From positions 1-64,000 of the forward strand of contig PHAT01000006.1 in the NCBI GenBank assembly GCA_002840435.1: a stretch of 64,000 nt of DNA. The letters are read 5' to 3'. The position numbers were made by a program, and so were the translations under genes. The stretch comes from Deltaproteobacteria bacterium HGW-Deltaproteobacteria-6 (GTDB lineage Bacteria; Desulfobacterota; Syntrophia; Syntrophales; Smithellaceae). The stretch's first letter is position 1; every line of letters begins with the position of its first letter. Under the pieces are notes generated by a model. The model was not told the DNA's origin. It did not search any database and saw nothing but the letters and a program-made list of their open reading frames with translations. Shown here piece after piece: positions 32,646 through 50,905 of the stretch.

Positions 32646-33935
32646 TCAGATTTTCGCCAGTGCGCCATCCAGAGCTTCGATAATGTCATCAATATGCTCA
32701 ATCCCGATCGACAGCCGGATAAGATCAGGTGTCAATCCGCCTGCCAGCTGTTCTTTTTCGGAAAGCTGCGAATGAGAAGTGCTGGCCGGATGCAGGATCA
32801 GGCTCTTGGCGTCGCCGACGTTTGCCAGATGCGAGAATAAATCGATATTTGAGATAATCTTTACCGCTGCATCGTATCCGCCCTTCACGCCAAAAACGAC
32901 CATGCCTCCGAAACCTTTTTTCAGATACTGGGATGCCGTTGGATAAGTCGGATCATCGGTCAGCCCCGGATAGCGCACCCAGGCGACCTTGGGATGTTTC
33001 TTCAGATACTGGGCAACAGCCAGCGCATTTTCGCTGTGCCGCACAATGCGCAATGGCAGTGTTTCAGCGCCCTGTAAAAATATCCATGCGTTATCCGGTG
33101 AAAGCGCTGCGCCGAGATTACGAAGCGGTACCGTTCGCACGCGCAGGGCAAAAGCAATCGGCGCCAGCGCTTCCGGCAGATCGAGCGCCCAGCGCAATCC
33201 GTGATAGTTGTTATCCGGCTCCGTTAACAATTTGTGCTTTCCGCCTTTCCAGTTGAACTTTCCGGAATCCGTAATGCTTCCGCCGATTGCCGTGCCGTGT
33301 CCGCCGATCCACTTGGTCAGCGAATTAACCACGATGTCCGCGCCGTAATCGATCGTGCGCAGCAAATACGGTGTGGTGAAGGTTGCATCGACAATCAACG
33401 GAAGGCCGTGTTTATGGGCGATGTCGGCCACCGCTTTCACATCCGTAAAATCCAGAACCGGATTGCCGATGGTTTCGATAAACAAGGCGCGTGTTTTGGG
33501 CGTGATGGCCTTCTCAAAATTCTTCGGATCGTGTGGATCGACAAATTTCGTATTGATGCCGAGTTTCGGCAAAATGGCGTCAAACTGCGTGTAGGTTCCG
33601 CCATACAAATTATTTGCCGATACAATCTCATCGCCGGCTTCCGCAAGAGTTATGATGGCGTAAAAAATTGCCGATGTGCCGGATGAGACAACGACCGATG
33701 CGGCGCCGCCTTCCAGTTGCGTGATGCGTTCTTCCAGGACGGCATTGGTCGGGTTGGTCAGCCGTGAATAGATATTGCCCAATTCTTTCAACCCAAATAA
33801 ATTCGCCGCGTGTTCTGTGTTCTTGAATACAAACGACGATGTCCTGTAAATCGGCACCGCCCTCGCTGTTGTTGCAGAATCCGGTGTTTCCTGCCCGGCG
33901 TGTACTGCAATGGTTTCCAGTCTTCTTTTTGTCAT
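32646..33935 (-). CDS. metY: O-acetylhomoserine sulfhydrylase (MetY), copy 1
   Basis: 429 aa from the ATG at 33935 (AAAGGAG upstream). A longer in-frame start at 33989 would place coding sequence in the attenuator terminator and is rejected. Family marks are [38 protein letters not shown], the PLP lysine in [17 protein letters not shown] and [20 protein letters not shown], a MetY-type ending. It makes homocysteine from O-acetylhomoserine and sulfide. A Cys-rich leader ORF and terminator precede it. Confidence 0.93.
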
Positions 33936-33973
33936 TTTGTTTTCTCCTTTAAGTTGTATTAAATTTTTAGGTA

Positions 33974-34020
33974 TAAAAAAACCCACCATCCGGAATGAAT
34001 TCTAAATTCCGGGTGATGGG
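33974..34020 (-). terminator. Leader terminator (attenuator) of metY
   Basis: Stem CCCATCACCCGGAAT/ATTCCGGATGGTGGG, then seven T, 39 bp before the metY start. Its 5' arm CCGGAATTT (34004-34012) is complementary to AAATTCCTGG in the leader ORF (34074-34083, one bulged T), so a competing antiterminator can form. Confidence 0.85.
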
Positions 34021-34049
34021 ATATCTTCCGTTACTACAATGATTCAGTT

Positions 34050-34106
34050 CTACATGAACGAATCTCCCCATTTCCAGGAATTTCGCATTTCCATGCAACA
34101 ACACAT
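34050..34106 (-). CDS. Cysteine-rich leader peptide upstream of metY
   Basis: 18-codon ORF encoding MCCCMEMRNSWKWGDSFM, too short for ordinary gene calling. An extra in-frame ATG lies directly before it (34109). Three consecutive Cys codons sit at positions 2-4. The peptide matches that at 36345-36401 at 12 of 18 positions, and both are followed by a terminator. Expected action: ribosomes pausing at Cys codons when Cys-tRNA is scarce free codons 8-11 to pair with the terminator arm, allowing metY expression. No strong SD is visible. Confidence 0.75.
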   Translation of the reverse strand: MCCCMEMRNSWKWGDSFM

Positions 34107-34162
34107 CATTGGTAAGATATTATTCAGCCTTATTAATTTTAATTTCATAGTTAAAACATTCA

Positions 34163-34606
34163 TTAAATATCGTAATTAACAGTCTGGCGCTGTTTTTTGT
34201 CTTTTTGCCGTACCACGAGAGAGTCAAGAGTTGTTTTTGCAAGCGTTTCGGCAAACGCTCTGGAAGCCTCTTCCCACAAATCACGGGTTATACAGAAGTC
34301 CGAGCGATTGCAGGCTGACGGTTTCTCCACACAATCGACCAGGCAGATTGGCCCTTCGACAACCTCAAAAATATCTTTGACGGTTATTTCGGACGGTGCT
34401 TTCGCCAGCTCATACCCGCCGTGCGATCCTCGTGTTGAATTAATTAATCCGGCTGATTTTAACGGATTAATCAAATGCCAGAGATATTTTTCTGAGATAT
34501 CTTCCCTTTGAGATATCTCTCTTAAAAGAACCGGACGTTCGCCGTAATGGGTTGCAAGATCTAACATAAGCCGGACGCCGTAGCGTCCTTTGGTCGAGAG
34601 TTTCAT
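34163..34606 (-). CDS. Rrf2-family transcriptional regulator
   Basis: 147 aa. MKLSTKGRYGVRLMLDLA is the family start, the winged helix is SQREDISEKYLWHLINPLKSAGLI, and RGSHGGYELAKAP is the wing. Three or four cysteines (CLVDCVEKPSACNRSDFC) lie where IscR-type members bind an iron-sulfur cluster. CymR-type members instead control cysteine genes. Its promoter and that of the sulfate ABC operon share the same operator-like sequence. It may be autoregulated and may read through into the metY leader 54 bp downstream. Confidence 0.9.
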   Translation of the reverse strand: MKLSTKGRYGVRLMLDLATHYGERPVLLREISQREDISEKYLWHLINPLKSAGLINSTRGSHGGYELAKAPSEITVKDIFEVVEGPICLVDCVEKPSACNRSDFCITRDLWEEASRAFAETLAKTTLDSLVVRQKDKKQRQTVNYDI

Positions 34607-34630
34607 AATTCTTTAATCTCTATTTTTTTC

Positions 34631-34669
34631 ATTGAAATACTAGATATTATAATTAAAGACCATTGTCAA
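34631..34669 (-). promoter_or_regulatory. rrf2 promoter with candidate Rrf2 operator
   Basis: TTGACA (34664-34669), 17 bp, TATCTA (34641-34646) on the minus strand. The plus-strand sequence ATTGAAATACTAGATA (34631-34646) overlaps the -10 and is identical at the sulfate operon promoter (47884-47899). Confidence 0.75.
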
Positions 34670-34800
34670 GAGAAATTATTAATTATGGACAATTCCCATA
34701 ATATTTTAAATACAATAATAAATCATATACATAGACAACATATTGCTTTGCGTTATGGAGAAAATTGAACAGAGACGATGATCCGAGGTCTCGGTTCGAA

Positions 34801-34853
34801 ATCAGCAAAACACGAATCCCGGAGCAAAACTATTCTGCTCCGGGATTGCTGAT
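34801..34853 (-). terminator. Long hairpin terminator after the porin gene
   Basis: Perfect inner 12-bp stem AATCCCGGAGCA/TGCTCCGGGATT (34815-34826, 34836-34847), extended by outer ATCAGC/GCTGAT pairing. It ends 23 bp after the porin stop at 34876. Confidence 0.7.
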
Positions 34854-34875
34854 TTAATATGTGAATAGAATCTCC

Positions 34876-36192
34876 TTAAAACGTCAGCGTCAGCTTGTTG
34901 ATGACCAGATAATCGTTGCGCAGATTATTGGCGTCTGACTTCCCTTTATAGTAATCATCAGTAAAAAGATAACCCACGCCCAGCATATAGGAGAGGTTAT
35001 TAGTGATTTTGTAAATGGCTTTCAAATCGACTTCATAACCGTAAGCGTTGTTAAGGTAGTCCGCCGGCTTCTTATCGGCATTGGCATAAGACACAGACGC
35101 CATGATATCCAGGGCATCAATCGGTTTCACACCACCTCTGGCCTGGAAAAACCAGCTGTTGGTCATGGCCGTGTCTTGCGCAGCACCATCGTAACCGGCC
35201 AGCGTTCCCGCCCAATTGGTGCGCTCATAGTTCCACATAATCAGGCAGGGGCTCCAGTCACGGCCGCCATTAAGAATGCCGCCTTCATTTTTATCAGTCG
35301 TACCGGGATCATTACCGGACACATACGCAATGGTCCCACCGGCGTAAAATTTACCGAGATCGGCAGTTGCATCAACCCAGCCGGCTATATTGTCCAGCGT
35401 AATATCGGCTGCACCGTTATCAAACTTGTCTCTACCGTTCAGGTAATTGAATTCAGCCTGCAGCGCCACCGAACCGATTTTGGCAAGGATATAAGGAGTC
35501 AATAGAAAATAGTTTCTTTTGTAAGGTTGAGCGGCAGTGCGGTTTTCAGCATAATTGTAATATTTGATGTCCAAGCCGGCTCTGCCGGTTTTCCAGTTAT
35601 AAACGCCTTCAATACTGTATTTGTCATTGTCTCTATCCGTTGTTGTGGCAGTCGTGTTGACTGCGGTGCGGTTGGCCTCTTTAACTTTGGTATAGGCCGC
35701 ATTAAGCGTTACCGGACCTACGGCATAAGAATATTTAATCCGCCCGGCGGGCGCGTAGCTATTGCCGAATATAGTTCCCGTGGCGCCGTCATTCATATAA
35801 CCGACATCGAAAACGCCGACGGCTGATTTATAATTGATGTATGCCCAGTCAAGAGCAATGTTTTCGTTTTCCGCACGCGTTCCGGCCGAATCCGCAGCCA
35901 GTGCCGTGCCGGCAGCGTCTCTTGTCGCACCCCATGCTCTCTCCATTGCATCAAAACGGGTAACTAAAGTCAAACCGGGTGACACGGTAAAATCTGTTCT
36001 GACCCTTAATCTCTGGTAATAAAAAGCGGTCGAAGGACCGTCCGTGGCTGTATCTTTCTTCACCGTGGTCTTATCCAGATACACGCCTGCCGCATAAAAC
36101 TCGCCGCTAAACTCTACATCGAGCGCCATAGCCGATATGCTGAAGGCCAGGACAAGTCCCAGCGACAGCATTACTAACCAAAATCTCTTCAT
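34876..36192 (-). CDS. Outer-membrane porin in the sulfur-assimilation cluster
   Basis: 438 aa. Signal peptide (LVMLSLGLVLAFSISAMA), then alternating hydrophobic beta-strands, and a C terminus ending in Phe (YLVINKLTLTF) as outer-membrane barrels do. Strand-like repeats such as GVYNWKTGRAGLDIKYYNY and GSVALQAEFNYLNGRD suggest a 14-18-strand porin. It follows cysN and has its own Cys leader and terminator, so it is placed under cysteine control. An uptake role for sulfate or sulfonates is inferred. The mature chain holds only one Cys, sensible for a protein made during cysteine starvation. Confidence 0.8.
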   Translation of the reverse strand: MKRFWLVMLSLGLVLAFSISAMALDVEFSGEFYAAGVYLDKTTVKKDTATDGPSTAFYYQRLRVRTDFTVSPGLTLVTRFDAMERAWGATRDAAGTALAADSAGTRAENENIALDWAYINYKSAVGVFDVGYMNDGATGTIFGNSYAPAGRIKYSYAVGPVTLNAAYTKVKEANRTAVNTTATTTDRDNDKYSIEGVYNWKTGRAGLDIKYYNYAENRTAAQPYKRNYFLLTPYILAKIGSVALQAEFNYLNGRDKFDNGAADITLDNIAGWVDATADLGKFYAGGTIAYVSGNDPGTTDKNEGGILNGGRDWSPCLIMWNYERTNWAGTLAGYDGAAQDTAMTNSWFFQARGGVKPIDALDIMASVSYANADKKPADYLNNAYGYEVDLKAIYKITNNLSYMLGVGYLFTDDYYKGKSDANNLRNDYLVINKLTLTF

Positions 36193-36269
36193 TACTCTTC
36201 TCCTGAATTAAAATATTTATTATTCCCTTAAAAACAGGCATTTTTAAGGCCTCTTATGCTTCAATTAAT

Positions 36270-36315
36270 AAAAAAACCCACCTGCCAAAATGGATTCTAA
36301 ATTCCGGCTGGTGGG
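36270..36315 (-). terminator. Leader terminator (attenuator) of the porin gene
   Basis: Stem CCCACCAGCCGGAAT/ATTTTGGCAGGTGGG, then seven T, between the leader ORF and the porin start. The arm CCGGAATTT (36299-36307) is complementary to AAATTCCTGG in the leader (36369-36378), as in the metY leader. Confidence 0.85.
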
Positions 36316-36344
36316 TTGTTTCTAGCTATTATGATGATGCTCTT

Positions 36345-36401
36345 TTACAAAAACAAACCTCCCCATTCCCAGGAATTTCGCATTTTCATACAACGACACA
36401 T
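36345..36401 (-). CDS. Cysteine-rich leader peptide upstream of the porin gene
   Basis: 18-codon ORF encoding MCRCMKMRNSWEWGGLFL. Cys codons are at 2 and 4. The MC-CM-MRNSW-WG pattern and length equal those of the metY leader, and a terminator follows in the same arrangement. The gap 36193-36506 holds only this leader and its terminator. No separate promoter is obvious, so transcription may come through from cysN, with the attenuator deciding whether the porin is made. Confidence 0.75.
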   Translation of the reverse strand: MCRCMKMRNSWEWGGLFL

Positions 36402-36506
36402 CGTTTGTTTGAGATTGTTCAGTTTTGTTAATCTTAAGTTCATATTTAAACCATTCGTAATGACAGCCCCTAGTAATAACCGAAGCCCCTATAACAATGC
36501 GACCTT

Positions 36507-38306
36507 TCAAATAATATATTCGGCGACGATTTCTTTGTTCCGGAGCAATGCGTTAACTTCACGGACGGCGTCATCCGGCGACGCGTCTGCCGGAATGACC
36601 AGATCAACCGGGAAACTCGAAAAAATATTATTCCCCACGCACACCACCAGAATTTCGGCAGGCGTGTTGAGCACTTTCAATATTTCCAGATCATAATCGT
36701 CGATGCCGGACAAGGCTGTAATGAAGATCTGGCCTGCGTCGGTCAGAATCCTGGCCAGTTCTCCCAAGCGGTTAATCGCGTCGTCCGTATCCGCGGTGTT
36801 TCCCGGAACATCGGAAGCAATGCCGGAAAGCAGATTATTGAAACCGAGATAGTAAGTCTGGTGATTATGAAAAAACAACATCCGTTCCAGTCCCTTGGCC
36901 AGTGCTGTAACCCGATCAAATTCTTCGCCCGCAAAGACGATGAACTTTGCGCCATGGCTGTTATGGCGAGAACGATCAACCGGTGTAATGAAGCCCTTGT
37001 CCCAGGCAATCTCCCGCTGCCGGATATGATCCGCAAGAAGTGTATCTCGATTATCAGCTTCGTCCAGGATGATGCCGCCTCCGGCAATTTCAAAATGATC
37101 GACGATGACAAACCTTCCGGTGCCTTCGATGGCAGTCACGGAATCAAAGGCAATCGGCTTGGTGGTCTCCAGAATGACTTCTCCGACATCGTGCCGGTTG
37201 AGCTGTTTCTTATGCTGCGTCATACTGAGATCCGTCGCATCAAGGACATGAATAATCTCGGCAAGCCGAACAGGCACACGGCAGGTCGCCAGCTTCAGTT
37301 TATAGGATTTATCTCTGATCAGCGGCGAACGTCCCATCCAGAAGATATGGGCTTTGAAACGCGAATTCACGAGCGGCAGTGTATCGCCGGGTTTGGTAAC
37401 AATCTCACCCGGCTTGATGTATAGCTGCGTATCAAGAGTAATGCCGATGGCTTCCGAGGCCTTCGCTTGCGTCTTGACCGGTGTATTGAAGGCCTCGATG
37501 GTTCGGATACGCGCTTTTTTATTGGAAGGCAGGAATAAAACCTCGTCGCCGGCGCTTAAGCTCCCGGTCTCGATGGTTCCGGCGATAATGCGGCGGTCGT
37601 CATTTTCTTCCGTAAATTTATAGATATCCTGCACCGGAAAACGCAGCGGCAGATGGGTATCGCTACGCTTCTTTTCAAACGCATCCAACTGATCAAGTAC
37701 CGTCGGCCCTTCATACCAGGGCATAAGGGAAGAAAGCGTGACCAGATTCTCGCCGTCGCGGGCACTGATGGGAATAAAGGCAATTGGCTTCACCTGTAAG
37801 GTTTCCAAAAATGCCGTATATTCCGCGCAAAGCAAATCATAGGCCTTGCGGTCATAGCCGACGAGATCCATTTTATTGAGCAGCACCACCACCTGGCGAA
37901 CCCCCAGCATGGAGACGAGATAACCGTGGCGTTTGCTGTTTTCCTGCACGCCTTCGTCAGCGGCGATGACCAATAATGCCGCTTCCGCGCGGGCAGCCCC
38001 CGTTACCATGTTTTTCAGAAACTCGATATGACCCGGTGCATCGATCACGATGTAATCCCGCTTGTTTGTTTTAAAGAAACAACGGGCGCTGTCGATGGTG
38101 ATGCCTTGCGTCCTTTCATCCTTGAGTGCATCCAAAAGGAAGGCATACTCAAATGGTTTGGCGTTTCTGGCGCAAAGGGCTTTAACGTCTTCGAGTTTTC
38201 CTTCGGGAAGTGATCCCGTATCGGCCAGAAGCCTCCCAATCACCGTGCTCTTGCCGTGATCGACATGGCCCACAATAACAATATTGATTTGGTCGCGATC
38301 TTTCAT
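36507..38306 (-). CDS. cysN: Sulfate adenylyltransferase large subunit CysN with degenerate APS-kinase-like tail
   Basis: 599 aa. GTPase part (1-430): G1 [16 protein letters not shown]3 DAPGHIEF, G4 NKMD, then EF-Tu-like beta domains. With CysD it makes APS from sulfate and ATP. Residues about 445-599 align with APS kinase ([39 protein letters not shown]), but the P-loop position reads [11 protein letters not shown], lacking GxxGxGKST. The kinase domain should therefore be inactive. The cluster's CysH looks like an APS reductase, so PAPS would not be needed. It is adjacent to cysD. Confidence 0.93.
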
Positions 38307-39209
38307 TTACATATATCCTTCCCGGCGCAGTGTTTCCAGACCACCGCCGTCTTCTTTATCCTGCGCGCGGCCTGATCGCTCCGCAATGTTGGAAAATTTC
38401 CCTTCCCGCAGCTCCGCAATGATTTCCTTCACTGTGCGGGCCTCCGACGCTACAGGTGTTGTACAGGGGTAGCAGCCCAGCGAGCGATAGCGTTTGCCGT
38501 CGCCCTGATTGAAATACAGGGAGACCAGCGGAATATTCTCCCGTTCGATATATTCCCAGATATTGAGTTCCGTCCAATCCAGCAGGGGATGAACGCGAAT
38601 ATGCGTCCCCGGCGCGAAATCAGTTTTGAATTGATTCCATAATTCCGGTGGTTGATCGCCGACATCCCAGTCATTTTCACGATCGCGCGGCGAGAAATAC
38701 CGCTCTTTCGACCGGCTGCCTTCTTCGTCAGCACGCACGCCGACGATGACGCCGGTATACTGCTCGGTATTTGTATCCGGCACATAGCGGCCAAGGCCGT
38801 GATCGAACCGGTAGCGCGGCCACTGCCCCGACAGCGTGTTTTTCAGCGCCTCACTTTTCAATTTGCGGCAGCAGCTGATACGGTCGCAGTTCCCATCAGG
38901 GTAGGTTTCCTTTTTTGCCAGCGCTTCCGTGTTTTCCCCATAGAGGATATTCAAATGCCATTGCCGGGCCAATGCATCGCGGTATTCAATCATTTCTGGA
39001 ATTTTGAAATGCGTATCGATGTGCAGCATGGGCATAGGCACATGACCGAAAAAAGCCTTCCTCGCCAGCCACAGCAAGACGGTGCTGTCTTTGCCGATCG
39101 ACCACAGCATAACCAGGTTCTTAAATTCCCGGTAGGCCTCCCGGAATATATACACGCTCTGTGCTTCCAGTTTGTCAAGATGATCCATTTTACTTATTCC
39201 TTCCGACAA
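38307..39209 (-). CDS. cysD: Sulfate adenylyltransferase small subunit CysD
   Basis: 300 aa. PP-loop-like site [20 protein letters not shown], then [50 protein letters not shown] and [13 protein letters not shown]. Length and motifs match CysD, which adenylates sulfate with CysN. It directly abuts cysN and overlaps cysH by 20 bp. Confidence 0.96.
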
Positions 39210-39963
39210 GTTTGCCGTTTACAATATGCAGACCGCATTCCTTCTGTTCGGGTGTTTCCCACCACCAGCGCCCCGACCGGAGATCTTCGCCGGACAACAC
39301 CTTCCGGGTACAAGGGGCGCAGCCGATGCTCGGATAGCCCTGATCGTGCAGTTTATTGTAGGGTATCTGATGTTCCTTAATATAGGCCCATACCCGCTCT
39401 TCGCTCCAATCGGCCAGAGGATTGAGCTTGATGAGGCCATTGCCTTCATCCCACTCAATTTTTTCCAGGGCATTTCTTGTGACAGCCTGTTGCCTGCGCA
39501 ATCCCGTAATCCAGACATCCAGTGTGGACAGAACTCTTCCAAGCGGCTTTACCTTGCGCACGAAACAACATTTTTTTCTGTTTTCGATGCTTTCATAAAA
39601 GAGGTTAGGCCCCTCCCGGCTTTCCATGGCCTCGACATCTGCTGATTCCGGAAACAAAAACTCATACTTCATCTTGTATCGCGACATGGTGCGGTTCACA
39701 ACGTCATAAGTCTCACTAGGGAGCCTCCCCGTATCGAGGATAAAGATTCTTGCTTCAGGCTTTATGGCTAGAATGATTTGCGTGAGGACTTGATCCTCTG
39801 CGCCAAGGCTCGACGCCAGAGCAATGCGATCCTTGTTATTAATGGAGCTTCCGGCATAGGCCGAAAGGAAATAGCGCAGAATCTGATCCGGTTCCTGGTC
39901 TTTGAATTGCAAAACCAATTCCTTTATTATTTCTTGCTGCATCATAACCATTCTATTATTCAC
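39190..39963 (-). CDS. cysH: Adenylylsulfate (APS) reductase, CysH family
   Basis: 257 aa. Catalytic C-terminal [12 protein letters not shown] carries the family ECGLH motif. [12 protein letters not shown] and GCAPCTRKV supply the CC and CxxC pairs that bind a [4Fe-4S] cluster in APS-specific (plant/bacterial) reductases and are missing in PAPS reductases. It reduces APS to sulfite in the cytoplasm. It lies between tusA and cysD, consistent with an APS-only route. Confidence 0.93.
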
Positions 39964-39965
39964 AC

Positions 39966-40199
39966 TTATCCTTTTTTCACGACGACCCGGAAGGTTTCGC
40001 CAATAGGCTCAACTTTGACCACCCGATGACCTTCTTCCTTCAGACTCCGGGGCACATTCAGCATGGGTTCTCCTTCATCAAGGATCACTTCCAGATATTC
40101 ACCGGATTCCAATTCTTCAAGAGCGAGCTTCGTCTTGACGAAATTCATAGGGCAGGCGACACCATGCAGATTCAGATGTTTCTTAATCTCATGTTCCAT
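39966..40199 (-). CDS. tusA: TusA-family sulfur carrier protein
   Basis: 77 aa. LHGVACPMNFVKTKLALEELE is the TusA/SirA core with the sulfur-carrying Cys in the CPxxxxK motif, and the rest is a two-layer alpha/beta fold. It may relay sulfur between the assimilation enzymes and the thiocarboxylate pathway. Ends 2 bp from cysH and overlaps the sulfite reductase gene by 11 bp. Confidence 0.9.
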   Translation of the reverse strand: MEHEIKKHLNLHGVACPMNFVKTKLALEELESGEYLEVILDEGEPMLNVPRSLKEEGHRVVKVEPIGETFRVVVKKG

Positions 40200-41055
40200 G
40201 AAGTATCTCCTCGTTCACTTTTTCCACACCAATCCTGTTGATCGTGTGTCCAAATCTTTCTTTCTTCCGTCCATTGCGGCGGTAAAACGCGATGGTCCGG
40301 TCAATCAGCTCATAGAGCCTGTCGGCGTTTTCGATTAACCCGCCAAGGCGTGTGCCCAATCGGGGAATCTTCCCCATCGTTCCACCGATCCAGAGGATAT
40401 ACCCGCGCTTGGCTGCCCTCCATGACCCTTCCGGGCAGCCGGATGTGCAAATACTGCAATAGAGGCACTTCGCTTCGTCCAGAACATAGTCATCACCTAC
40501 TTTACTGATGGCTCCCGTGGGGCAAATATTAAGGCAAAGCCCGCAATCACTGCATGACGCCTTGTCCCACGCGGGCAGAATCCCGCCCATGACGCCGATA
40601 TCGTTTTCCGTCGCTTTGGCGCAATTATGCGGGCAACCCGTGACGGACAGCTTGAACTTGTGCGGCGTTTCCTGCCGGAAATATTTCTCGTCCAGCTTAC
40701 GGGCGATGGCTTTCGTATCGATGATGCCCCAGTGGCAGGTTAACTCCCCCGGGCAGGCAACAATAATACGGATTCGCGGGCCGCAGGCACCCATGGTCAC
40801 GCCGACCGAGTCCAGCTCGCCTCTGGCCTCTTCGAGATGGCTGTGATGGACGAAGTGGATCTCGATGCCCTGTCTTGTTGAAAGGTGAAGCTGCCCACGG
40901 CCATACTTTTCTGCCACGACAGCAACTTTCGCCAATTGGGCGGAGGTGAAATCGCCGCCCACGGCGTGCAGCCGCATGGCAAAATAATCTTTCTGCTTCT
41001 GTTGAATCATGCCGACTTTTTTCAGGGCCGCCAGATCAAAATCTTTCTCACTCAT
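40189..41055 (-). CDS. Short siroheme sulfite reductase with ferredoxin domain
   Basis: 288 aa. The siroheme/[4Fe-4S] motif is split as ACPGELTC (C-x5-C) and TGCPHNCAK (C-x3-C). A 2[4Fe-4S] ferredoxin insert follows: CSDCGLCLNICP and CLYCSICTSGCP. It reduces sulfite to sulfide. It is half the size of CysI and resembles the small assimilatory-type enzymes of anaerobes. It is embedded in the hcyD-tusA operon, as sir is in the Wolinella homocysteine cluster. Confidence 0.88.
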   Translation of the reverse strand: MSEKDFDLAALKKVGMIQQKQKDYFAMRLHAVGGDFTSAQLAKVAVVAEKYGRGQLHLSTRQGIEIHFVHHSHLEEARGELDSVGVTMGACGPRIRIIVACPGELTCHWGIIDTKAIARKLDEKYFRQETPHKFKLSVTGCPHNCAKATENDIGVMGGILPAWDKASCSDCGLCLNICPTGAISKVGDDYVLDEAKCLYCSICTSGCPEGSWRAAKRGYILWIGGTMGKIPRLGTRLGGLIENADRLYELIDRTIAFYRRNGRKKERFGHTINRIGVEKVNEEILHGT

Positions 41056-41453
41056 AGTTTATCCTCGATGATTAATGGTTCTTCATTGACCTTTCCCTGT
41101 TTGATCCAAAACCCCTTAACGACGGGCCGGTCATCCAGAAGGGAAATAATAACGTATAAAGCCGACGGGTCATAGGCCAGTGCGATGTCTTCCACGGATG
41201 GCCGCGCCGGTGTAACCGGATGGCTGTGATAGACACCGATGATTTTGAGACCCGCCTGCCTGGCTTTTTTATGGGCGGCAAACTGCTCCTGCGGCTCGAA
41301 GGAAAAGTGATCTTCCCGGCCATCGATGTTTTTCATTTCATAAATCGCGGTGATCCGGTCATCCATGCCGCCCAGGTAGCCGCAAGCCTCAATCGGGGCT
41401 TCCCGGCAGGCGTGGGCGATGATCTGATCGACAATGTTCTGTGCAATAATCAT
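41052..41453 (-). CDS. hcyD: JAMM metalloprotease HcyD/Mec-like, trims the sulfur carrier
   Basis: 133 aa. JAMM motif: EACGYLGG, then GVYHSHPVTPARPSVEDIALAY (HxH-x7-S-x2-D zinc site). In Wolinella, HcyD removes the C-terminal residue(s) of HcyS so that GG can be thiolated; mycobacterial Mec has a related role. The sulfur carrier here ends in GGGSGA, which needs such trimming. Its start overlaps the hcyF stop and its stop overlaps the sulfite reductase start. Confidence 0.85.
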   Translation of the reverse strand: MIIAQNIVDQIIAHACREAPIEACGYLGGMDDRITAIYEMKNIDGREDHFSFEPQEQFAAHKKARQAGLKIIGVYHSHPVTPARPSVEDIALAYDPSALYVIISLLDDRPVVKGFWIKQGKVNEEPLIIEDKL

Positions 41454-42250
41454 CTTCTAATCTCACAAGCCTTTTGTTCATAGTCCACCAGACTGGTAAT
41501 GGTCGGGTTTTTGCCGCACACCGGGCAATCGGGATTCTTGTTTACCTTGACCTCGCGGAAGCGCATGGCCAACGCGTCAAAGATCAGCAGCCGCCCAGTC
41601 AGCAATTCCTTCAGCCCCAGCAGATATTTGAGAGCCTCCACCGCCTGGATGGTGCCGATGATGCCCGCCATACCGCCCAAAACGCCGGCCTGACTGCAAC
41701 TCGGCACTGCGCCAACCGGCGGGGGCGCGATGAACAGACAGCGGTAACATGGGCTTTCACCGGGCAGGACCGTAATCGTCTGCCCGTCAAACCTCAGAAT
41801 ACCCGCATGGGAAAAAGGCTTGCCTTGCAAAACACACGCGTCGTTGATCAGAAACTTCGCCGGGAAATTATCCGTTCCGTCGATCACGAAATCATAATCG
41901 GTGATCATGGACTGAATATTCCCCGACAATGCCCGTTCCTTATATGTAACGACCCGGACATCGGGATTCAGCGCTTTTATTTTTTCCGCTGCTGAGTCCA
42001 CCTTGGGAATACCCACATCGCCGGTAAAGTGAATAATCTGCCGCTGGAGGTTGCTCAGATCGACATGATCGCCATCCACAAGGCCGATCGTCCCCACGCC
42101 CGCGGCGGCAAGATAAAGGGCCGCAGGAGCGCCCAGGCCCCCGGCCCCGATGATGAGTACTTTCGAGGCAAGCAACTTTTCCTGACCTTTGCCGCCGACC
42201 TGCTTTAAAATTATATTACGGCTGTATCGCTCAATTTGTTCATCGTTCAT
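41450..42250 (-). CDS. hcyF: E1-like adenylyltransferase HcyF (ThiF/MoeB family)
   Basis: 266 aa from the ATG at 42250 (AAGGAG upstream, just past the metY2 stop). NERYSRN-like start, nucleotide loop IGAGGLGAPAALYLAAAGVG, LVDGDHVDLSNLQRQ, DGTDNFPAKFLINDAC, and two CxxC zinc pairs (SPCYRC, CPVC). It would adenylate the C terminus of the trimmed sulfur carrier for thiocarboxylate formation. The operon context picks HcyF over ThiF or MoeB. Confidence 0.87.
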   Translation of the reverse strand: MNDEQIERYSRNIILKQVGGKGQEKLLASKVLIIGAGGLGAPAALYLAAAGVGTIGLVDGDHVDLSNLQRQIIHFTGDVGIPKVDSAAEKIKALNPDVRVVTYKERALSGNIQSMITDYDFVIDGTDNFPAKFLINDACVLQGKPFSHAGILRFDGQTITVLPGESPCYRCLFIAPPPVGAVPSCSQAGVLGGMAGIIGTIQAVEALKYLLGLKELLTGRLLIFDALAMRFREVKVNKNPDCPVCGKNPTITSLVDYEQKACEIRR

Positions 42251-42254
42251 AATT

Positions 42255-43490
42255 TTATGCTCCTTCATTTAAGGCTTGCGAAATGTCCTCACGCAGGTCA
42301 TCAATATCTTCAATGCCGAATGAAATGCGAATCAGGGTGTCATCCACCCCCAGACCTTTCATCTCTGCTTCCGTAAACCCGGCAAAAATCGTTGACGCGG
42401 GGTGCAGGGCCAGCGTTTTATTGTCGCCCAGATTGGAGGCCCGGCTGATCACAGACAGCTTGTTTAAAAAACGGAAGCAGTCCGCCTTGCTGAAGAGATT
42501 CAATGATAGAATCCCGCCGAAACCTGAAAATTGCTTTTGCGCCAGCTTGTGAAACGGAGATGACGGCAACCCAGGATATAAAACGGACTTAACGGCGCGA
42601 TGGGTTGATAAATACTCCGCCATACTACCGGCGTTGGCGCAGATCCTCTCCATGCGCAGGCCCAGGGTTTCCAGTCCCAGGGTTTGCAGCCAGGCGTTAT
42701 GGGGCGCAAGGCAACTGCCCGTTTCCCGATAGATCTCTTTTCGCAGCCGGGCAATAAAGGCCATATCTCTGAACCGATGATAGTCCTGAAGCGCGGGAGA
42801 GAGCGACCAGTCATAATTGCCCAGATCAACGATAACGCCGCCCATACTGGTTGCGCCTCCCGAGACATACTTTGTCGTGGAATGCAAAACGACGTTGACG
42901 CCGAAATCCCGGGCGCGAAAAAGATAAGGCGTTGTTACCGTGCTGTCGGCAATGACGGGTATCCGATGCTTTGCGGCAATCGAAGAGATCTCTTCAAAAT
43001 CGGCAACGATCATGCAGGGATTGGAAATTGTCTCCATGAAAATTGCCCGGGTGTTCCCGTCAATGGCCGCTTCTATGGCAGCTAAATCTTCCGCTGGAAC
43101 AAAACGCGTTTCCACCCCGAAGGGCGTGAGGATTTTTTTGAAAAACGTATAGGTCCCGCCAAAGAGCGACGCGGTGGAAATTATATTTTCGCCTGACGCA
43201 ACTAAATTGAGAAAGGTTGTGGAGATGGCCGCCATTCCCGATGCAACGGCCACGGAGGCAACGCCGCCTTCCAGGGCTGTGATCTTGCGTTCAAAGGTTT
43301 CCACGGTCGGGTTGGATATGCGTGTATAGGCATGAGAGGCCTGCCGTCCGTAAAAAACATCGGCCATGGACTCAGCGGATTCAAACCCGAAAGCGGCCGT
43401 GTCATAGAGGGGAAAGCGCAGCGCTCCCTGCGCCTCTTTCCGGAGACCCGATTCGTGAATGGCCCTGGTTGTAAATCCGCGTTGTTTCAT
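42255..43490 (-). CDS. MetY-like sulfhydrylase, copy 2, of the thiocarboxylate pathway
   Basis: 411 aa Cys/Met PLP enzyme. YTRISNPTVETFERKI, PLP lysine in VLHSTTKYVSGGATSMGG, and LSVISRASNLGDNKTLALHPAS, a MetY-type block. It differs from copy 1 (32646) and sits between hcyS and hcyF. In Wolinella the co-clustered MetY takes sulfur from the HcyS thiocarboxylate to make homocysteine, and that is the likely job here. Its start overlaps the hcyS stop by 4 bp. Confidence 0.85.
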   Translation of the reverse strand: MKQRGFTTRAIHESGLRKEAQGALRFPLYDTAAFGFESAESMADVFYGRQASHAYTRISNPTVETFERKITALEGGVASVAVASGMAAISTTFLNLVASGENIISTASLFGGTYTFFKKILTPFGVETRFVPAEDLAAIEAAIDGNTRAIFMETISNPCMIVADFEEISSIAAKHRIPVIADSTVTTPYLFRARDFGVNVVLHSTTKYVSGGATSMGGVIVDLGNYDWSLSPALQDYHRFRDMAFIARLRKEIYRETGSCLAPHNAWLQTLGLETLGLRMERICANAGSMAEYLSTHRAVKSVLYPGLPSSPFHKLAQKQFSGFGGILSLNLFSKADCFRFLNKLSVISRASNLGDNKTLALHPASTIFAGFTEAEMKGLGVDDTLIRISFGIEDIDDLREDISQALNEGA

Positions 43491-43699
43491 GCCCCGGACC
43501 CGCCGCCCATGAAATAGAGAAATTCCACGGCATCGCCTTCCTTTATCTTGATCGATACAAAATCCTGGCGCTGCAGAATGGTCCCGTTTAGTTCCACCGT
43601 AACCATATCGGGGTCCGCGACCTTCTTCTCGGCCAGCAGCTCCGTTATGGTCAAAACGCCCGAAACCTCTTCTGCATTTCCATTAATCAGTAATTTCAT
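43487..43699 (-). CDS. hcyS: ThiS/MoaD-like sulfur carrier protein HcyS
   Basis: 70 aa beta-grasp protein: MKLLINGNAEEV, LLAEKKVADPDMVTVELNGTIL and EGDAVEFLYFMGGGSGA. Mature ThiS ends in GG. Here residues follow the glycines (GSGA or SGA), so processing is required before activation. Next to hcyD (protease), hcyF (E1) and metY, this fits the protein-thiocarboxylate homocysteine pathway. Confidence 0.85.
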   Translation of the reverse strand: MKLLINGNAEEVSGVLTITELLAEKKVADPDMVTVELNGTILQRQDFVSIKIKEGDAVEFLYFMGGGSGA

Positions 43700-43711
43700 G
43701 TTTCTTCTCCT

Positions 43712-44779
43712 TTATATCTGGTAATCTTCGAACACCCTGACATGCCGGGGCCTTACAAAAATCGGTTCATTTTTTTGCAGACCCAGGCTTTGAAAAACGT
43801 CTCTCGTCAATTCGGCCTCCAATGTCTCACGGCTGCCCGCCAGAGTCAGGCTGACGCGCACCACGGGACCGATGGCATGGATATGGAGAACCCTGGCCTC
43901 AATACTGGTATGATCGAGGGGCTTTCTTTCCAAAGCCAGATCGTGTGTCCGGACGTAGCCCAGAACCTCTGGGGCGCCTGTCTCCTCGCGGCCTGCGACT
44001 GCTGAAACGCCTTCACCGGATTTGCCTCGCGTCTGATGAGAGCGGCAATGAAAGAGGTTGACGTTGCCTAAAAAATTCAGGACAAAAGCATTGGCCGGGT
44101 GTTCATAGACTTCCTCCGGTGTGCCGATCTGTTCGATCCTTCCTTCGCGCATCACGACAATGCGGTCGGCCAGTTCCAATGCCTCTTCCTGGTCATGCGT
44201 TACAAAGACGCTCGTTACGTGGATCTCATCGTGAAGTTTTCGCAGCCAGCGGCGCAATTCCGCCCGGACCTGGGCATCAAGCGCCCCGAAGGGTTCGTCA
44301 AGAAGCAGAATCTGCGGCTCCACGGCCAGTGCCCGCGCCAGGGCGATTCTCTGGCGCTGCCCTCCCGACAATTGGGACGGATGGCGGTCGGCCAAGCCAT
44401 CGAGCTGTACCAGACGCAATAACCCCAATACTTTTTCCCGGATTTCCTGATCCGGCAGGCGCGCCTTTCGTGATTTGACCCGCAGGCCGAATGCGACATT
44501 TTCCAAAACCGTCATATGCTTGAACAAGGCATAGTGCTGAAAGACAAACCCGACCTTTCGCTCACGGACATGCCGGCTGGTAGTGTCTTCGCCATTGATT
44601 TGAATAGTCCCGCCTTCAGGCGTTTCCAGTCCGGCGATGATCCTGAGCAGCGTTGTCTTGCCGGAGCCCGAAGGCCCGAGCAGCGCCACAAGCTCTCCTG
44701 ACGGAATATCCAGACTTACGTCCTTGAGGGCGGTGAAACTACCGAATCGCTTGCTGATATTTCTTGCTTCAATGCTCAT
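43712..44779 (-). CDS. cysA: Sulfate/thiosulfate ABC transporter ATP-binding protein CysA
   Basis: 355 aa. Walker [13 protein letters not shown]-loop FVFQHYALF, signature [15 protein letters not shown], Walker [13 protein letters not shown]-loop VTHDQEEAL, then a C-terminal TOBE-type regulatory domain ending [13 protein letters not shown]. It powers sulfate uptake by CysT/CysW. Order binding protein-T-W-A is the standard operon layout. Confidence 0.95.
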
Positions 44780-44800
44780 ATTAATTGCTTTCTAAAAATG

Positions 44801-45667
44801 TCACGAGAGCTGCTCGCGCATCTTCCATTCCACAAAACTCTTGACGGCCAGCGTTACCAGCGCCAGAAGGGCCAGCAGCGATGCCACGGCAAAAGCTGCG
44901 GCAAAGTTGTATTCGTTATAGAGGATCTCCACATGCAGGGGAATCGTATTGGTCGCGCCCCGGATATGCCCCGAAACAACGGAAACAGCGCCAAACTCTC
45001 CCATGGCGCGCGCATTGCAGAGAATAACCCCATAAATGACGCCCCATTTGATATTGGGAAGCGTTATCTTAAAAAAAGTCTGTAAGCCGCTCGCGCCCAG
45101 GACCAAGGCAGCTTCCTCTTCATCCCTGCCCTGCGACTCCATCAGGGGAATCAATTCCCGCGCCACAAACGGAAAAGTGACAAATATTGTTGCCAGAACG
45201 ATTCCCGGCGTTGAAAAAATGATCTTGATCCGGGAAGCATCAAGCCACGGACCCAGCCATCCCTGAAGTCCGAAAATAAGAACAAAGATCAATCCCGAAA
45301 TAACCGGCGAAACGGAAAACGGAAGATCAATCAGTGTAATTAAAAAATTCTTGCCGGGGAACTGAAACTTGGTAATGGCCCAGGCAGCCGCCAGCCCGAA
45401 GATAAGATTAAGCGGCACGCTGATGGCCGCCACCCAAAGCGTCAGGCGGATGGCAGCCAGAGCATCCGTTTCGTGCAGAGAGGCAAGGTAAACCGCCAGC
45501 CCTTTTTCCAGAGCTTGAGCAAACACCGCAGCCAGGGGCAATAGCAGAAAGAGCCCGAGAAAAAGGACGGCTATCCCCGTCAACAGCCAGCGGACCGGTG
45601 CGGGTTCAGTGAGATCCCTGCGTCTGCCCGGCGCTTTGATCAATTTTGTTTGTAAAGTATCCGACAT
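44801..45667 (-). CDS. cysW: Sulfate ABC transporter permease CysW
   Basis: 288 aa with about six membrane helices and the permease EAA-type loop EEEAALVLGASGLQTFFKITLPNI (contact with CysA). PVRWLLTGIAVLFLGLFLLLP is TM1, and GAVSVVSGHIRGATNTIPL is a sulfate-permease mark. It lies between cysT and cysA. Confidence 0.94.
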   Translation of the reverse strand: MSDTLQTKLIKAPGRRRDLTEPAPVRWLLTGIAVLFLGLFLLLPLAAVFAQALEKGLAVYLASLHETDALAAIRLTLWVAAISVPLNLIFGLAAAWAITKFQFPGKNFLITLIDLPFSVSPVISGLIFVLIFGLQGWLGPWLDASRIKIIFSTPGIVLATIFVTFPFVARELIPLMESQGRDEEEAALVLGASGLQTFFKITLPNIKWGVIYGVILCNARAMGEFGAVSVVSGHIRGATNTIPLHVEILYNEYNFAAAFAVASLLALLALVTLAVKSFVEWKMREQLS

Positions 45668-45682
45668 ACCCTTTTCCTTTCT

Positions 45683-46516
45683 TTAAGTTTCCGTCACTTT
45701 TCTGCTCCAGCGCTGGAGCACATTGATCATCAGGAGCATGATAAAAGAAGCAACCAGCATCACCAGAGCAATCGCCGTCGCACCGCTGTAATCGTACTGC
45801 TCCAGCTTGGTGATGATCAAAAGCGAGGTAATCTCCGAGACCATGGGCATATTACCGGCAATGAAAATGATGGAACCGTATTCTCCCACCGCGCGGGCAA
45901 AGGCCAGCGCAAAACCTGTCAGGATCGATGGGACGATGACCGGAAACAGAACATGATGAAATGTCTGCCAGCGGCTTGCCCCCAGAGAAGCGGCCGCTTC
46001 CTCCGTCTCCTTTTCAATGTCCTCGATCACCGGTTGCAGCGTCCTGACCACAAAGGGCAGGCCGATCACTGTCATGGCAATCACAATGCCCAGTGGCGTG
46101 TAAGCAACCCTGATACCCAACGGCTCTAAAAATGATCCGACCCAGCCGTTGGCCGAGTAAACCGTGGCGAGCGTTATGCCCACCACGGCTGTAGGCAGTG
46201 CGAAAGGCAGATCGACCAGAGCATCCATGATTTTACGACCGGGGAAGTCGTATCTGATCAAAACCCAGGCCACCAATGTGCCGAACACGGCGTTGATCAA
46301 AGCTGCGATGAGAGCGGCGCCGAAAGTGACGCGATAGGAAGCCATCACCCGCGGCGATGTCACCGCCGATACAAATGCCGCCCAGGTCATCCCCGCTGTG
46401 TTGATCACCAGCGCGGACAGCGGAATCAGGACAATGAGGCTGAGATAAAAAACCGTATAGCCCATCGTCGGCCCGAATCCGGGAAGCACATGTTGGTTTC
46501 TCAATCGCAAGTTCAT
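45683..46516 (-). CDS. cysT: Sulfate ABC transporter permease CysT (CysU)
   Basis: 277 aa with six helices. VLPGFGPTMGYTVFYLSLIVLIPL start, EAA loop EEAAASLGASRWQTFHHVLFP, and GEYGSIIFIAGNMPMVSEITSLL, all CysT/CysU-specific. It pairs with CysW as the channel. Confidence 0.94.
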   Translation of the reverse strand: MNLRLRNQHVLPGFGPTMGYTVFYLSLIVLIPLSALVINTAGMTWAAFVSAVTSPRVMASYRVTFGAALIAALINAVFGTLVAWVLIRYDFPGRKIMDALVDLPFALPTAVVGITLATVYSANGWVGSFLEPLGIRVAYTPLGIVIAMTVIGLPFVVRTLQPVIEDIEKETEEAAASLGASRWQTFHHVLFPVIVPSILTGFALAFARAVGEYGSIIFIAGNMPMVSEITSLLIITKLEQYDYSGATAIALVMLVASFIMLLMINVLQRWSRKVTET

Positions 46517-46540
46517 GACAATTCCTTCTATTCCCTGCTC

Positions 46541-47635
46541 TTAATTCTTCGCGTATATCAGGTCGAAAACACCGCCATCGGAGAAGTGCGTCTTCTGTGC
46601 CTTCTGCCAACTGCCGAACACTTCCTCGAGAGTAAAGAGTTTCAGATTCGGAAGCCTGGAGGCTGCAGCAGCTATCTTCTTGTTGATTGGCCGGTAGTAG
46701 TGCCTGGCGGCAATCTTCTGTCCCTCGTCGCTATACAGGTATTTCAGATAGGCCTCGGCAATGGCACGTGTTCCGTGCTTCTCGACAACCTTGTCCACAA
46801 TTGTTACGGGTGGTTCGGCCAGAATACTGACCGAGGGCGTGATGATCTCGAATTTATCCGGCCCCAGTTCATTGATGGCCAGAAAAGCTTCATTTTCCCA
46901 GGCAAGCAGTACATCGCCAATACCGCGCTGGACGAAGGTAGTCGTCGAACCACGGGCGCCGGAATCCAGGACCGGTACATTTTTAAAGAGTTTTTTGACA
47001 AATGCCTGGGCAGTGGCATCATTCCCACCCTTTTGCCGCAGGGCGTATCCCCAGGCAGCCAGGTAATTCCAGCGCGCGCCGCCGGAGGTCTTGGGGTTCG
47101 GAGTAATGACGGAGATGCCCGGTTTGATCAGGTCATTCCAATCGTGAATATTTTTCGGATTACCCTTGCGGACTAAAAATACAATTGTGGATGTATAAGG
47201 GGCGCTGTTATGGGGCAGTCTCTTCTGCCAGCCGGTTTTGATCAGGCCTTTCCCCTGAACCTCGTCGATATCATAGGCCAAAGCCAGGGTAACAACATCC
47301 GCCTCCAGGCCGTCGATGACAGAACGCGCCTGTTTACCGGACCCGCCGTGAGATTGCTTAATCGTCACCTGTTGCCCCGTCTTCTTCTGCCAGTCTTTAA
47401 TGAACGCCTGGTTGAATTCCTGGTAAAGTTCACGCGTCGGATCGTATGAGACGTTGAGCAGGGTCACGGCCTCCGCAGCGGTAGCGGCTAACGACCAAGT
47501 CAGGATAATTGCAAAGAAAGCGATAAAAAATGCAAAAACCCGGCTGCCTGCAGTTAAGTAACTTCCAGCCTTATGACTGCTTCGATGAATGCTCAATTGC
47601 TGAGCACTATTTATATTGAACTTCTTGGTTATCAT
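46541..47635 (-). CDS. sbp: Periplasmic sulfate-binding protein
   Basis: 364 aa. Long N-terminal export signal (hydrophobic [20 protein letters not shown], cleavage likely after AEA). Mature blocks [58 protein letters not shown] and LLAWENEA are typical of Sbp/CysP. AAGGAG precedes the ATG. It is the first gene of the operon, behind the Cys-rich leader and attenuator. Confidence 0.93.
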
Positions 47636-47664
47636 TTTATTTCTCCTTATATATTTCAGTTAAC

Positions 47665-47709
47665 AAAAAACCCACTTCACGGTTTGTTCCTTTTTGCCGG
47701 TCAGCGGGT
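47665..47709 (-). terminator. Leader terminator (attenuator) of the sulfate operon
   Basis: Outer stem AACCCGCT/AGTGGGTT with an imperfect inner part, then TTTTTT, about 30 bp before the sbp start. It lies directly downstream of a Cys-rich leader ORF. Confidence 0.65.
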
Positions 47710-47739
47710 TCGTCAGTTCTTATTGATTTTGGTTTGCAA

Positions 47740-47820
47740 TCACATCGACGAACATCCTTTTTCCCGACAACAACATATGCCCATAAGACACATGCCGGCG
47801 CATATAAGATATCTGCGCAT
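47740..47820 (-). CDS. Cysteine-rich leader peptide of the sulfate-assimilation operon
   Basis: 26-codon ORF beginning MRRYLICAGMCLMGICCC and containing six Cys, three of them consecutive. An in-frame upstream ATG at 47856 with GGAGAA before it would give 38 aa. It lies between the operon promoter (47884-47922) and the terminator at 47665. The sequence is unlike the other two leaders, yet shares the Cys-codon run. Ribosome-mediated cysteine attenuation is the simplest reading. Confidence 0.7.
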   Translation of the reverse strand: MRRYLICAGMCLMGICCCREKGCSSM

Positions 47821-47883
47821 GTAACCGGAAACATTGTTTTGTAATCTTTTTATCATTCTTTGTTTTTATTCTCCATTAAATCT

Positions 47884-47922
47884 ATTGAAATACTAGATAA
47901 TAGAAAAAAGGCGATCTGTCAA
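47884..47922 (-). promoter_or_regulatory. Promoter and candidate Rrf2 operator of the sulfate operon
   Basis: TTGACA (47917-47922), 17 bp, TATCTA (47894-47899) on the minus strand. ATTGAAATACTAGATA is identical to the site at 34631-34646. In the rest of the gap up to 48220 only a small TCTCTAC/GTAGAG hairpin near 48040 was noticed. Confidence 0.75.
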
Positions 47923-48220
47923 GAACTATTTTTAGTCTTCATCAAAGTATCGATATGGTTTTTAAATAATAATCAATAAATTCGTAATAATAAGATTATG
48001 CATACTTTTATTGAAGCACAGTAACTTCCATAATGGATAATTCTCTACTTTTTTAGTAGAGTAATGACCTCAAGAAGCCTGCCTGACGGAAAGAAACAAT
48101 TAGTGAAAATAGATTGATTTTATAGGTAATTTTTTCTATTCACTTTGTGAAATAAAGGCCCCGCGTGTAATTTTGAAGATAACAAATTTATTACAATATC
48201 TTAGAAATGAACGGATATCC

Positions 48221-48670
48221 ATGAGCCCCAGCAGATTGTTTAAAAAGAAGACACAAAAACAAAACACGTCTAAAACAGATCAAGGAGCGGTGGAATCACC
48301 AAAGATTAATAACGCGCTCAGCATTCAGGTCGCCACGGCGACAAGATGTATACAGTTGAATTTAGAATTAGTTAATTTTCTTGCAACATGCGAAGGCATA
48401 AATAAAGAACAACTTGCGGCCATAAGAGAGATCTTAAATCAATCTGCTCTGCCGGCATCTTATACTCAAAATATGCGGAAAATAACGGATACGGTCGAAC
48501 GCAGTTTAGATGCCTTATCGCCCCTCCAGTTGGATGAATGGCGCAGCAATACAGCTAGTGACTTGTCAAAAGAGATGCTGATCTATCTGAAATTCGTAAA
48601 TAAAATTGATCCACAACGTGCCGCGGAAATAGAAAAGACAGTCCAGTCGAAACTGATAAAAACATCATAG
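48221..48670 (+). CDS. Conserved-looking hypothetical protein, unrecognised
   Basis: 149 aa from the ATG at 48221. A TTG start at 48173 would add 16 residues. The basic, Gln/Lys-rich N terminus (RLFKKKTQKQN) is followed by a helical region with heptad-like Leu/Ile spacing (CIQLNLELVNFLATCEGINKEQLAAIREIL). No signal peptide. It is the only plus-strand gene in a long minus-strand stretch. Function unknown. Confidence 0.5.
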   Translation: MSPSRLFKKKTQKQNTSKTDQGAVESPKINNALSIQVATATRCIQLNLELVNFLATCEGINKEQLAAIREILNQSALPASYTQNMRKITDTVERSLDALSPLQLDEWRSNTASDLSKEMLIYLKFVNKIDPQRAAEIEKTVQSKLIKTS

Positions 48671-49842: not shown

Positions 49843-49860
49843 GATGATGAAATCCTGTTT

Positions 49861-50874: not shown

Positions 50875-50905
50875 ATCAATCTATTACCTCTAATATTCTT
50901 GCTAT

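Follow-up and report, generated by a model that had tools for sequence, protein, structure and literature searches.

A cysteine-responsive, ribosome-mediated transcription attenuator is likely to gate the expression of an outer-membrane porin in the window (the whole stretch of 64,000 nucleotides analyzed here), and this gating probably takes place inside a sulfate-assimilation operon. The leader lies on the minus strand between cysN (36507..38306, -; TIGR02034 above cutoff) and the porin gene (34876..36192, -), and it combines a short cysteine-rich reading frame with an intrinsic terminator in the same manner as a second leader upstream of metY.

A metY-type leader upstream of the porin

The initial annotation had recognized the metY leader-attenuator again in front of the porin, and the alignment bears this out at the correct location: the two leaders form a direct repeat of 214 nt at 75% identity, the largest in 33900-48300 (77% over the 139 aligned columns of the leader core), and their 18-residue peptides, MCRCMKMRNSWEWGGLFL at the porin (coded from 36401, -) and MCCCMEMRNSWKWGDSFM at metY, are identical at 12 of 18 positions. 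An in-frame ATG lies 14 codons upstream of the 18-residue start, with an equivalent upstream ATG in all six strong leaders (giving 32 codons in five and 34 in that of the relative G029). Given the open frame and this matched ATG, the porin leader ORF probably starts at 36443 and has 32 codons rather than 18 (MNLRLTKLNNLKQTMCRCMKMRNSWEWGGLFL plus stop; 36345..36443, -), in which codons 16 and 18 encode Cys; no clear ribosome-binding site was found upstream of it. The metY leader ORF also encodes 32 residues (MKLKLIRLNNILPMMCCCMEMRNSWKWGDSFM plus stop; 34050..34148, -).

Downstream of the porin leader ORF is an intrinsic terminator (36271..36317, -; about -22 kcal/mol folded alone) whose 5' arm contains CCGGAATTT (36299-36307). 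The antiterminator 5' arm, AAATTCCTGG (36369..36378, -), lies inside the ORF and is complementary to that stretch, so that the pairing of a leader segment with a downstream terminator, first proposed by analogy with metY (terminator at 33976..34022, -, from folding and conserved pairing), is present here as well. CCGGAATTT occurs exactly at only two sites in the window, 36299-36307 and 34004-34012, and this 9-mer is not significant by itself (1.51 chance occurrences expected). The element does lie in the span originally assigned to it, 36299-36401, but the longer ORF (to 36443) and the terminator end (about 36271) fall outside. In a comparison with 200 dinucleotide shuffles each, the fold of the porin leader region was better than 199 (z -2.7) and that of the metY leader better than all 200 (z -3.7), and a covariance model built on four leaders, the porin copy included, matches the porin leader at E 2e-30. 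Between the terminator and the porin start there is also an AT-rich hairpin with arms CCTTAAAAA and TTTTTAAGG (36216-36243, -).

Distribution of the leader among relatives

A model of four leaders (R1), searched in 155 genomes of the class, gave matches at E<=0.05 in 7 of them. Convincing leaders (E<=7e-18) are present in five, namely the window's own genome, G070, G037, G042 and G029; G026 has a weak but credible leader (E 0.0104), and the match in G060 (L015) was judged to be due to chance. A further model (R3), searched in a phylum sample of 395 genomes that was drawn evenly and includes only part of the relatives, returned nothing beyond the own genome and a single terminator-like match (G467; L114, E 0.0086) that looks like a plain terminator as seen from 1400-1700. 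A plasmid search for the leader gave no match. A pattern search for a Cys run followed by a terminator in 50 genomes, whose spacing limit excludes metY-type leaders, found 7 matches in 7 genomes, and only the window's third leader (described below) was leader-like, L085 having been inspected at 1300-1800 and the other five judged from the matched sequence. The pattern matches in L006, L007 and L008 share a 20-mer but showed no Cys ORF with a terminator and were attributed to chance, the model matches in contig C3 of the own genome (G000:C3, L019), L037 and L081 proved on inspection to be chance or plain terminators, and reverse-strand R1 and R3 matches over terminators reflect the palindromic hairpin rather than extra leaders.

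In every relative whose upstream side is available the leader follows rrf2, and its usual downstream neighbor is metY; a porin copy was seen in the window's genome only. The order rrf2-leader-metY-cysK is found in G070, G037 and G029 (G037 having an additional short frame ahead of metY), and the G042 contig begins at the leader and continues with metY and cysK, so that metY or metY-cysK is downstream of leader homologues in four other genomes. The window's rrf2-type, CymR-like regulator (34163..34606, -; Pfam Rrf2 E 1.5e-40) has CymR as its best NCBIfam match at 138 bits, under the equivalog cutoff of 195. Leader-adjacent rrf2 genes are 82-86% identical to it, versus at most 58% for every other rrf2 match, and since the metY of G029 is a different paralog (56% identical), rrf2 and the leader appear to stay together while the target varies. 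The G026 leader precedes a small hydrolase and is flanked by two rrf2-like genes (L113:4058-5699), the first of which matches only from residue 44.

A survey of porins preceded by this leader had been suggested at the outset. Of 30 porin loci searched with R1, some of which end at contig ends, the window's own carries the leader and the remaining 29 do not; the nearest homologue of the window porin (76%) is in G070, which is the closest of the genomes with the metY leader, and it lies elsewhere in that genome, without a leader.

Folding with a modelled ribosome and proposed mechanism

Each transcript was folded at the length it has immediately before synthesis of the terminator 3' arm, the ribosome footprint being represented as 30 unpaired nucleotides. 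In all six leaders, pairing to the terminator 5' arm is maximal (11.5 to 18.5 pairs) when a codon of the Cys run occupies the A site, and it is 0 to 1.6 pairs when the P site is at codons 10-15 downstream of the MCCC Met; a ribosome at the stop codon leaves 3.1 to 9.1 pairs, or 21-76% of the stalled value. According to this profile, the end of the Cys run coincides with the point at which a paused ribosome would start to mask the antiterminator. A similar profile was obtained for the third leader, with a pairing peak of 12.2 to 12.7 at codons 26-30 and 6.7 to 8.8 at codons 34-38, and the G026 leader gave no such clear pattern in the same folding.

Ribosome-free equilibrium folding favors the antiterminator in five of six leaders, contrary to a strict trp-type model; full-length folds show a leader hairpin that blocks the antiterminator, and before the 3' arm is made this hairpin wins only in metY (n=6). 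When leader-terminator pairing was compared with that of shuffled ORFs, the result was clear in only one of eight leaders (1 of 300 shuffles reaching the observed value), the remaining seven giving 14, 22, 22, 26, 36, 49 and 147 of 300, and in a duplex test of seven leaders none fell under 37/1000.

We propose that RNA polymerase, most likely arriving from cysH-cysD-cysN, would transcribe the 32-codon leader ORF, and that when Cys-tRNA is short the ribosome would pause at Cys codons 16 and 18, leaving the second half of the ORF to pair with the terminator 5' arm and permitting read-through into the porin. With plentiful Cys-tRNA, the ribosome would cover the second half of the ORF, the terminator would form, and the porin would be off. 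The sequences themselves show the leader family, the ORF, the terminator, the complementarity and the conservation of these parts; translation of the leader ORF, charged tRNA-Cys as the signal and the entry of transcription from cysN are what we infer. The porin module would be a copy of the one controlling metY, with a relative standing before the sulfate-type transporter, and on these grounds the porin would belong to one cysteine-starvation regulon. Met codons at leader positions 15, 19 and 21 flank the Cys run (MCCCMEM), the last being Ile in two of six leaders, and with such codons around the run methionine supply might be read by the leader too.

Identity of the porin and a potential role in sulfur uptake

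The porin is a 438-residue protein with a signal peptide and a weak match to NF033939, the Desulfovibrio-type homotrimeric porin (54 bits, under the curated cutoff of 250). Its AlphaFold model is an 18-strand barrel (mean pLDDT 72.9) with generic Foldseek matches (AlgE, MOMP, chitoporin, OmpF and OprD), and it thus has the broad marks of an outer-membrane porin, a signal peptide and a barrel of about 16 to 18 strands. A terminator-like hairpin of 15 pairs lies 3' of the gene (34815..34847, -).

The strongest competing interpretation, to which we assign a little less than an even chance, is that the attenuator is real and cysteine-responsive but that the porin is a general pore upregulated in starvation, with no sulfur-specific role. 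The family is common (matches at E<=1e-10 in 126 of 155 class genomes, the window's own genome having four copies), the net charge of -6 and pI of 5.2 are ordinary among 31 further homologous ORFs, and nothing in the fold or charge of the porin indicates sulfate; bulk charge was dropped as a sign of anion selectivity, being unremarkable among homologues. The Desulfovibrio porin DVU0799 is described, in the accessible text of PMC5686591, as a general porin that modestly prefers anions. Against a purely general role, the porin sits in the sole sulfate-assimilation cluster of its kind among 50 family genomes (at E<=1e-40, the solute-binding protein that begins the cluster is found in this genome only, 1 of 50), and it comes directly after the sulfate-type transporter-cysHDN cluster, at the junction with rrf2-metY-cysK. 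Regulation and neighborhood are the best indirect evidence for a sulfur role: from them we infer that the pore serves sulfur uptake, which makes a sulfur-uptake porin a plausible identity. The uptake of sulfate or sulfonates that had been suggested for it originally keeps the sulfur-gene neighborhood in its favor, but draws nothing from a common family, an ordinary charge and a generic barrel.

Operon context and origin of the locus

The gene for the solute-binding protein (46541..47635, -; PF13531) opens the sulfate-type ABC transporter cluster, whose specificity for sulfate is suggested by its cys neighbors. Beside cysHDN, the interval 40189-43490 (-) encodes a sulfite-reductase-like protein, JAB, ThiF and a Cys/Met PLP enzyme, and has the look of a pathway that makes cysteine or homocysteine by way of a sulfur-carrier protein.

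That the porin follows cysN without an obvious promoter, so that the attenuator could act as a gate within the operon, was already part of the initial annotation and agrees with our promoter scan, in which the minus strand from the cysN stop to the start of the leader ORF (36444-36506) had no sigma-70-like match listed; promoter-like sites in the scan numbered 9, against 6.3 expected. With no visible promoter in this gap, the leader can reasonably be read as a gate inside the operon. It is unlikely, though worth keeping in mind, that the leader promoter instead lies in or just before the copied cassette and that the porin is its own transcription unit. The copied unit starts right after the position equivalent to the rrf2 stop, where it could carry a promoter, and its start is AT-rich; however, besides the empty gap downstream of cysN, this AT-rich block is an open frame with related N-termini in all six leaders (most commonly M-x-L-K-L-I-K-L-N-N), and one of the possible leader starts at metY shares a base with the rrf2 stop. 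Such a further in-frame ATG, with a 1-base overlap with the rrf2 stop, is present in the metY (34163), G037 and G029 leaders, and the overlap suggests that there is little promoter room after rrf2 and that the leader is coupled to it. We also considered a nearly leaderless start, in which a -10 box would lie 12 nt upstream of the ATG, and dropped it when the block proved to be an open reading frame.

Comparison with other genomes bears on how the gated porin came to stand beside the cys genes. In G070, genes matching 48805-51886 lie upstream of rrf2-leader-metY-cysK with others, read as thiamine-type, between, and there is no porin match at this locus; the window's counterpart of that interval holds the sulfate-type transporter, the cys operon and the porin. 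G150, from another family, has the cys operon in the same order (cysN 86%, cysD 90%), with no porin match in the surrounding 14 kb, and the operon it shares with the window has likely moved by horizontal transfer; in G150 (L107), the operon is followed by a gene that by eye resembles a transglutaminase. Taken together, the two comparisons indicate that a home-family porin and a copy of the home metY leader now adjoin an operon that was seen nowhere else in the family. In a tree of the leaders, the porin copy falls beside the metY-G070 pair (support 86/91) on the second longest branch (0.22), and the copying may predate the split between the window metY and G070 leaders, the support for this being moderate.

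Conservation of the leader

The reading frame is intact in all six leaders, including that of G029, in which a 6-nt insert adds two codons and keeps the frame. When the observed changes were placed at random (five pairs from five leaders, G029 being excluded owing to its insert), an in-frame stop arose within 32 codons in 67-90% of trials. Cys is retained at 17 of the 18 Cys-run codons over the six leaders (the Cys background being 0.9% in 19 window ORFs), and the single loss is in the porin copy, which reads Cys-Arg-Cys and keeps two of three where all five metY leaders have Cys-Cys-Cys. Non-synonymous changes are clearly below expectation only for the G037-G042 pair (P 0.0015), and the porin copy compared with metY has no synonymous excess and no purifying signal in the peptide (P 0.93); the leader peptide itself therefore seems loosely constrained.

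The terminator helix is 93.7% paired across the six leaders, with two pairs changed on both sides, and a change in the G029 core is mirrored in its terminator arm (CCGGG pairs with CCCGG); for the antiterminator, no covariation on both sides was found. Over the 19 columns of the antiterminator arm, the porin copy has no differences from metY, G070 or G037, versus 27-32 differences in the 139 columns overall, and retention of all 19 positions has P 0.005-0.012. This retention weighs against the improbable scenario in which the porin leader is a relic of a fortuitous duplication of the metY cassette, and the porin is transcribed from a separate promoter downstream of the terminator, free of cysteine control. 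The lost Cys codon, the long branch and the unconstrained peptide would all suit such a relic, as would a weak promoter-like match (9/12; 36247..36219, -) between the terminator and the porin; but the terminator of the copy remains paired, two pairs now being G-U, and the promoter-like match is no stronger than shuffles also give. A strong promoter downstream of the terminator, which had been raised initially as the observation that would speak against gating, is thus not seen, and this weak match is what stands in its place. A metabolite-binding riboswitch (for cysteine, SAM or O-acetylserine, for example) in place of a ribosome-read leader would suit the strongly conserved 139-nt core (74-94% identity within a set of five of the six leaders) but is very improbable, there being no Rfam match above the gathering score (none in the window; leaders sub-threshold or without a match), a conserved core that consists of the ORF with its terminator-complementary stretch, a core and terminator arm that change together in G029, and a frame that survives an insertion.

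A third leader and a candidate Rrf2 operator

The attenuator reading extends to a third Cys-rich leader ORF 5' of the sulfate-type ABC transporter (MIKRLQNNVSGYMRRYLICAGMCLMGICCCREKGCSSM plus stop; 47740..47856, -; shorter starts at 47793 and 47784), whose frame ends MCLMGICCCREKGCSSM and which has its own terminator (47665..47714, -; -15.3 kcal/mol, with a U-run). R3, with this leader outside its training set, matches 47665-47786 on the correct strand and in the correct place at 16.9 bits (E 0.17). Judged by sequence, it is a divergent member of the group, at the head of the porin's sulfate-assimilation cluster.

Upstream of it, a promoter/operator-like block, TTGACA-17-TATCTAGTATTTCAAT (47865..47934, -), is matched by another before rrf2 (34612..34681, -) at 70% identity over 70 nt, and exact copies of the 16-mer TATCTAGTATTTCAAT occur in the genome only at 34631-34646 and in the block at 47865-47934. 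A similar but less exact block precedes rrf2 in G070 and G029, and the G037 sequence gave no alignment to it. We take the shared TATCTAGTATTTCAAT block as a candidate Rrf2 operator. More tentatively, the three leaders (at the sulfate-type transporter, the porin and metY-cysK), on two transcripts, could represent a movable operon-internal cysteine gate with a possible shared Rrf2 operator, a copied cassette having recruited a general porin as a dedicated sulfur entry under Cys-tRNA control; we think this possible, at rather worse than even chances.

To our knowledge, it is rare for a sensor of amino-acid charge to control sulfur supply at the outer membrane. Were Cys-tRNA to gate the porin, outer-membrane permeability would be set by the same device as metY, an otherwise anonymous porin would receive a testable functional assignment, and a regulatory cassette would have been copied whole, recruiting a new gene into the regulon.

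Comparison with known systems

In mycobacteria, polycysteine leaderless short ORFs reportedly control cysteine genes according to Cys supply (work of Canestrari, 2020). Those ORFs are cited as leaderless and as acting by translation attenuation, whereas the leaders here consist of a longer ORF followed by an intrinsic terminator that is strong. Candidate Cys leaders of Actinobacteria without terminators also appear in the accessible text of PMC1262725. In the literature covered, which mostly leaves aside subscription papers and in part was available only as excerpts, we saw neither a porin nor a metY gene preceded by a Cys leader, and no such leader in a relative of this organism. For DVU0799, an 18-strand barrel like the window porin, which matches NF033939 remotely, the accessible text of PMC5686591 mentions no such leader, in contrast to the Cys leader at the window porin.

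A closer parallel is the uORFC-8-2 motif, which precedes cysS in Rhodobacterales and is proposed, in the portion of PMC8632094 available, to act by ribosome-mediated transcription attenuation. Both have a Cys-codon leader ORF followed by an intrinsic terminator; according to the same text, uORFC-8-2 carries tandem Cys codons at positions 14-15 and is found in Alphaproteobacteria before cysS only, whereas the leaders here occur in Smithellaceae-type genomes before metY, a sulfate-type transporter and a porin, with the Cys codons of the porin and metY-type leaders at 16-18. The classical trp, his and leu attenuators (Shewanella leuA in the accessible text of PMC2659441) likewise share leader codons, alternative hairpins and a terminator with the leaders described here, but the latter differ in that the amino acid is Cys, a porin is among the targets and the position is probably operon-internal. 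The mechanism is of a known type, and it is the porin target and the position inside an operon that are unusual.
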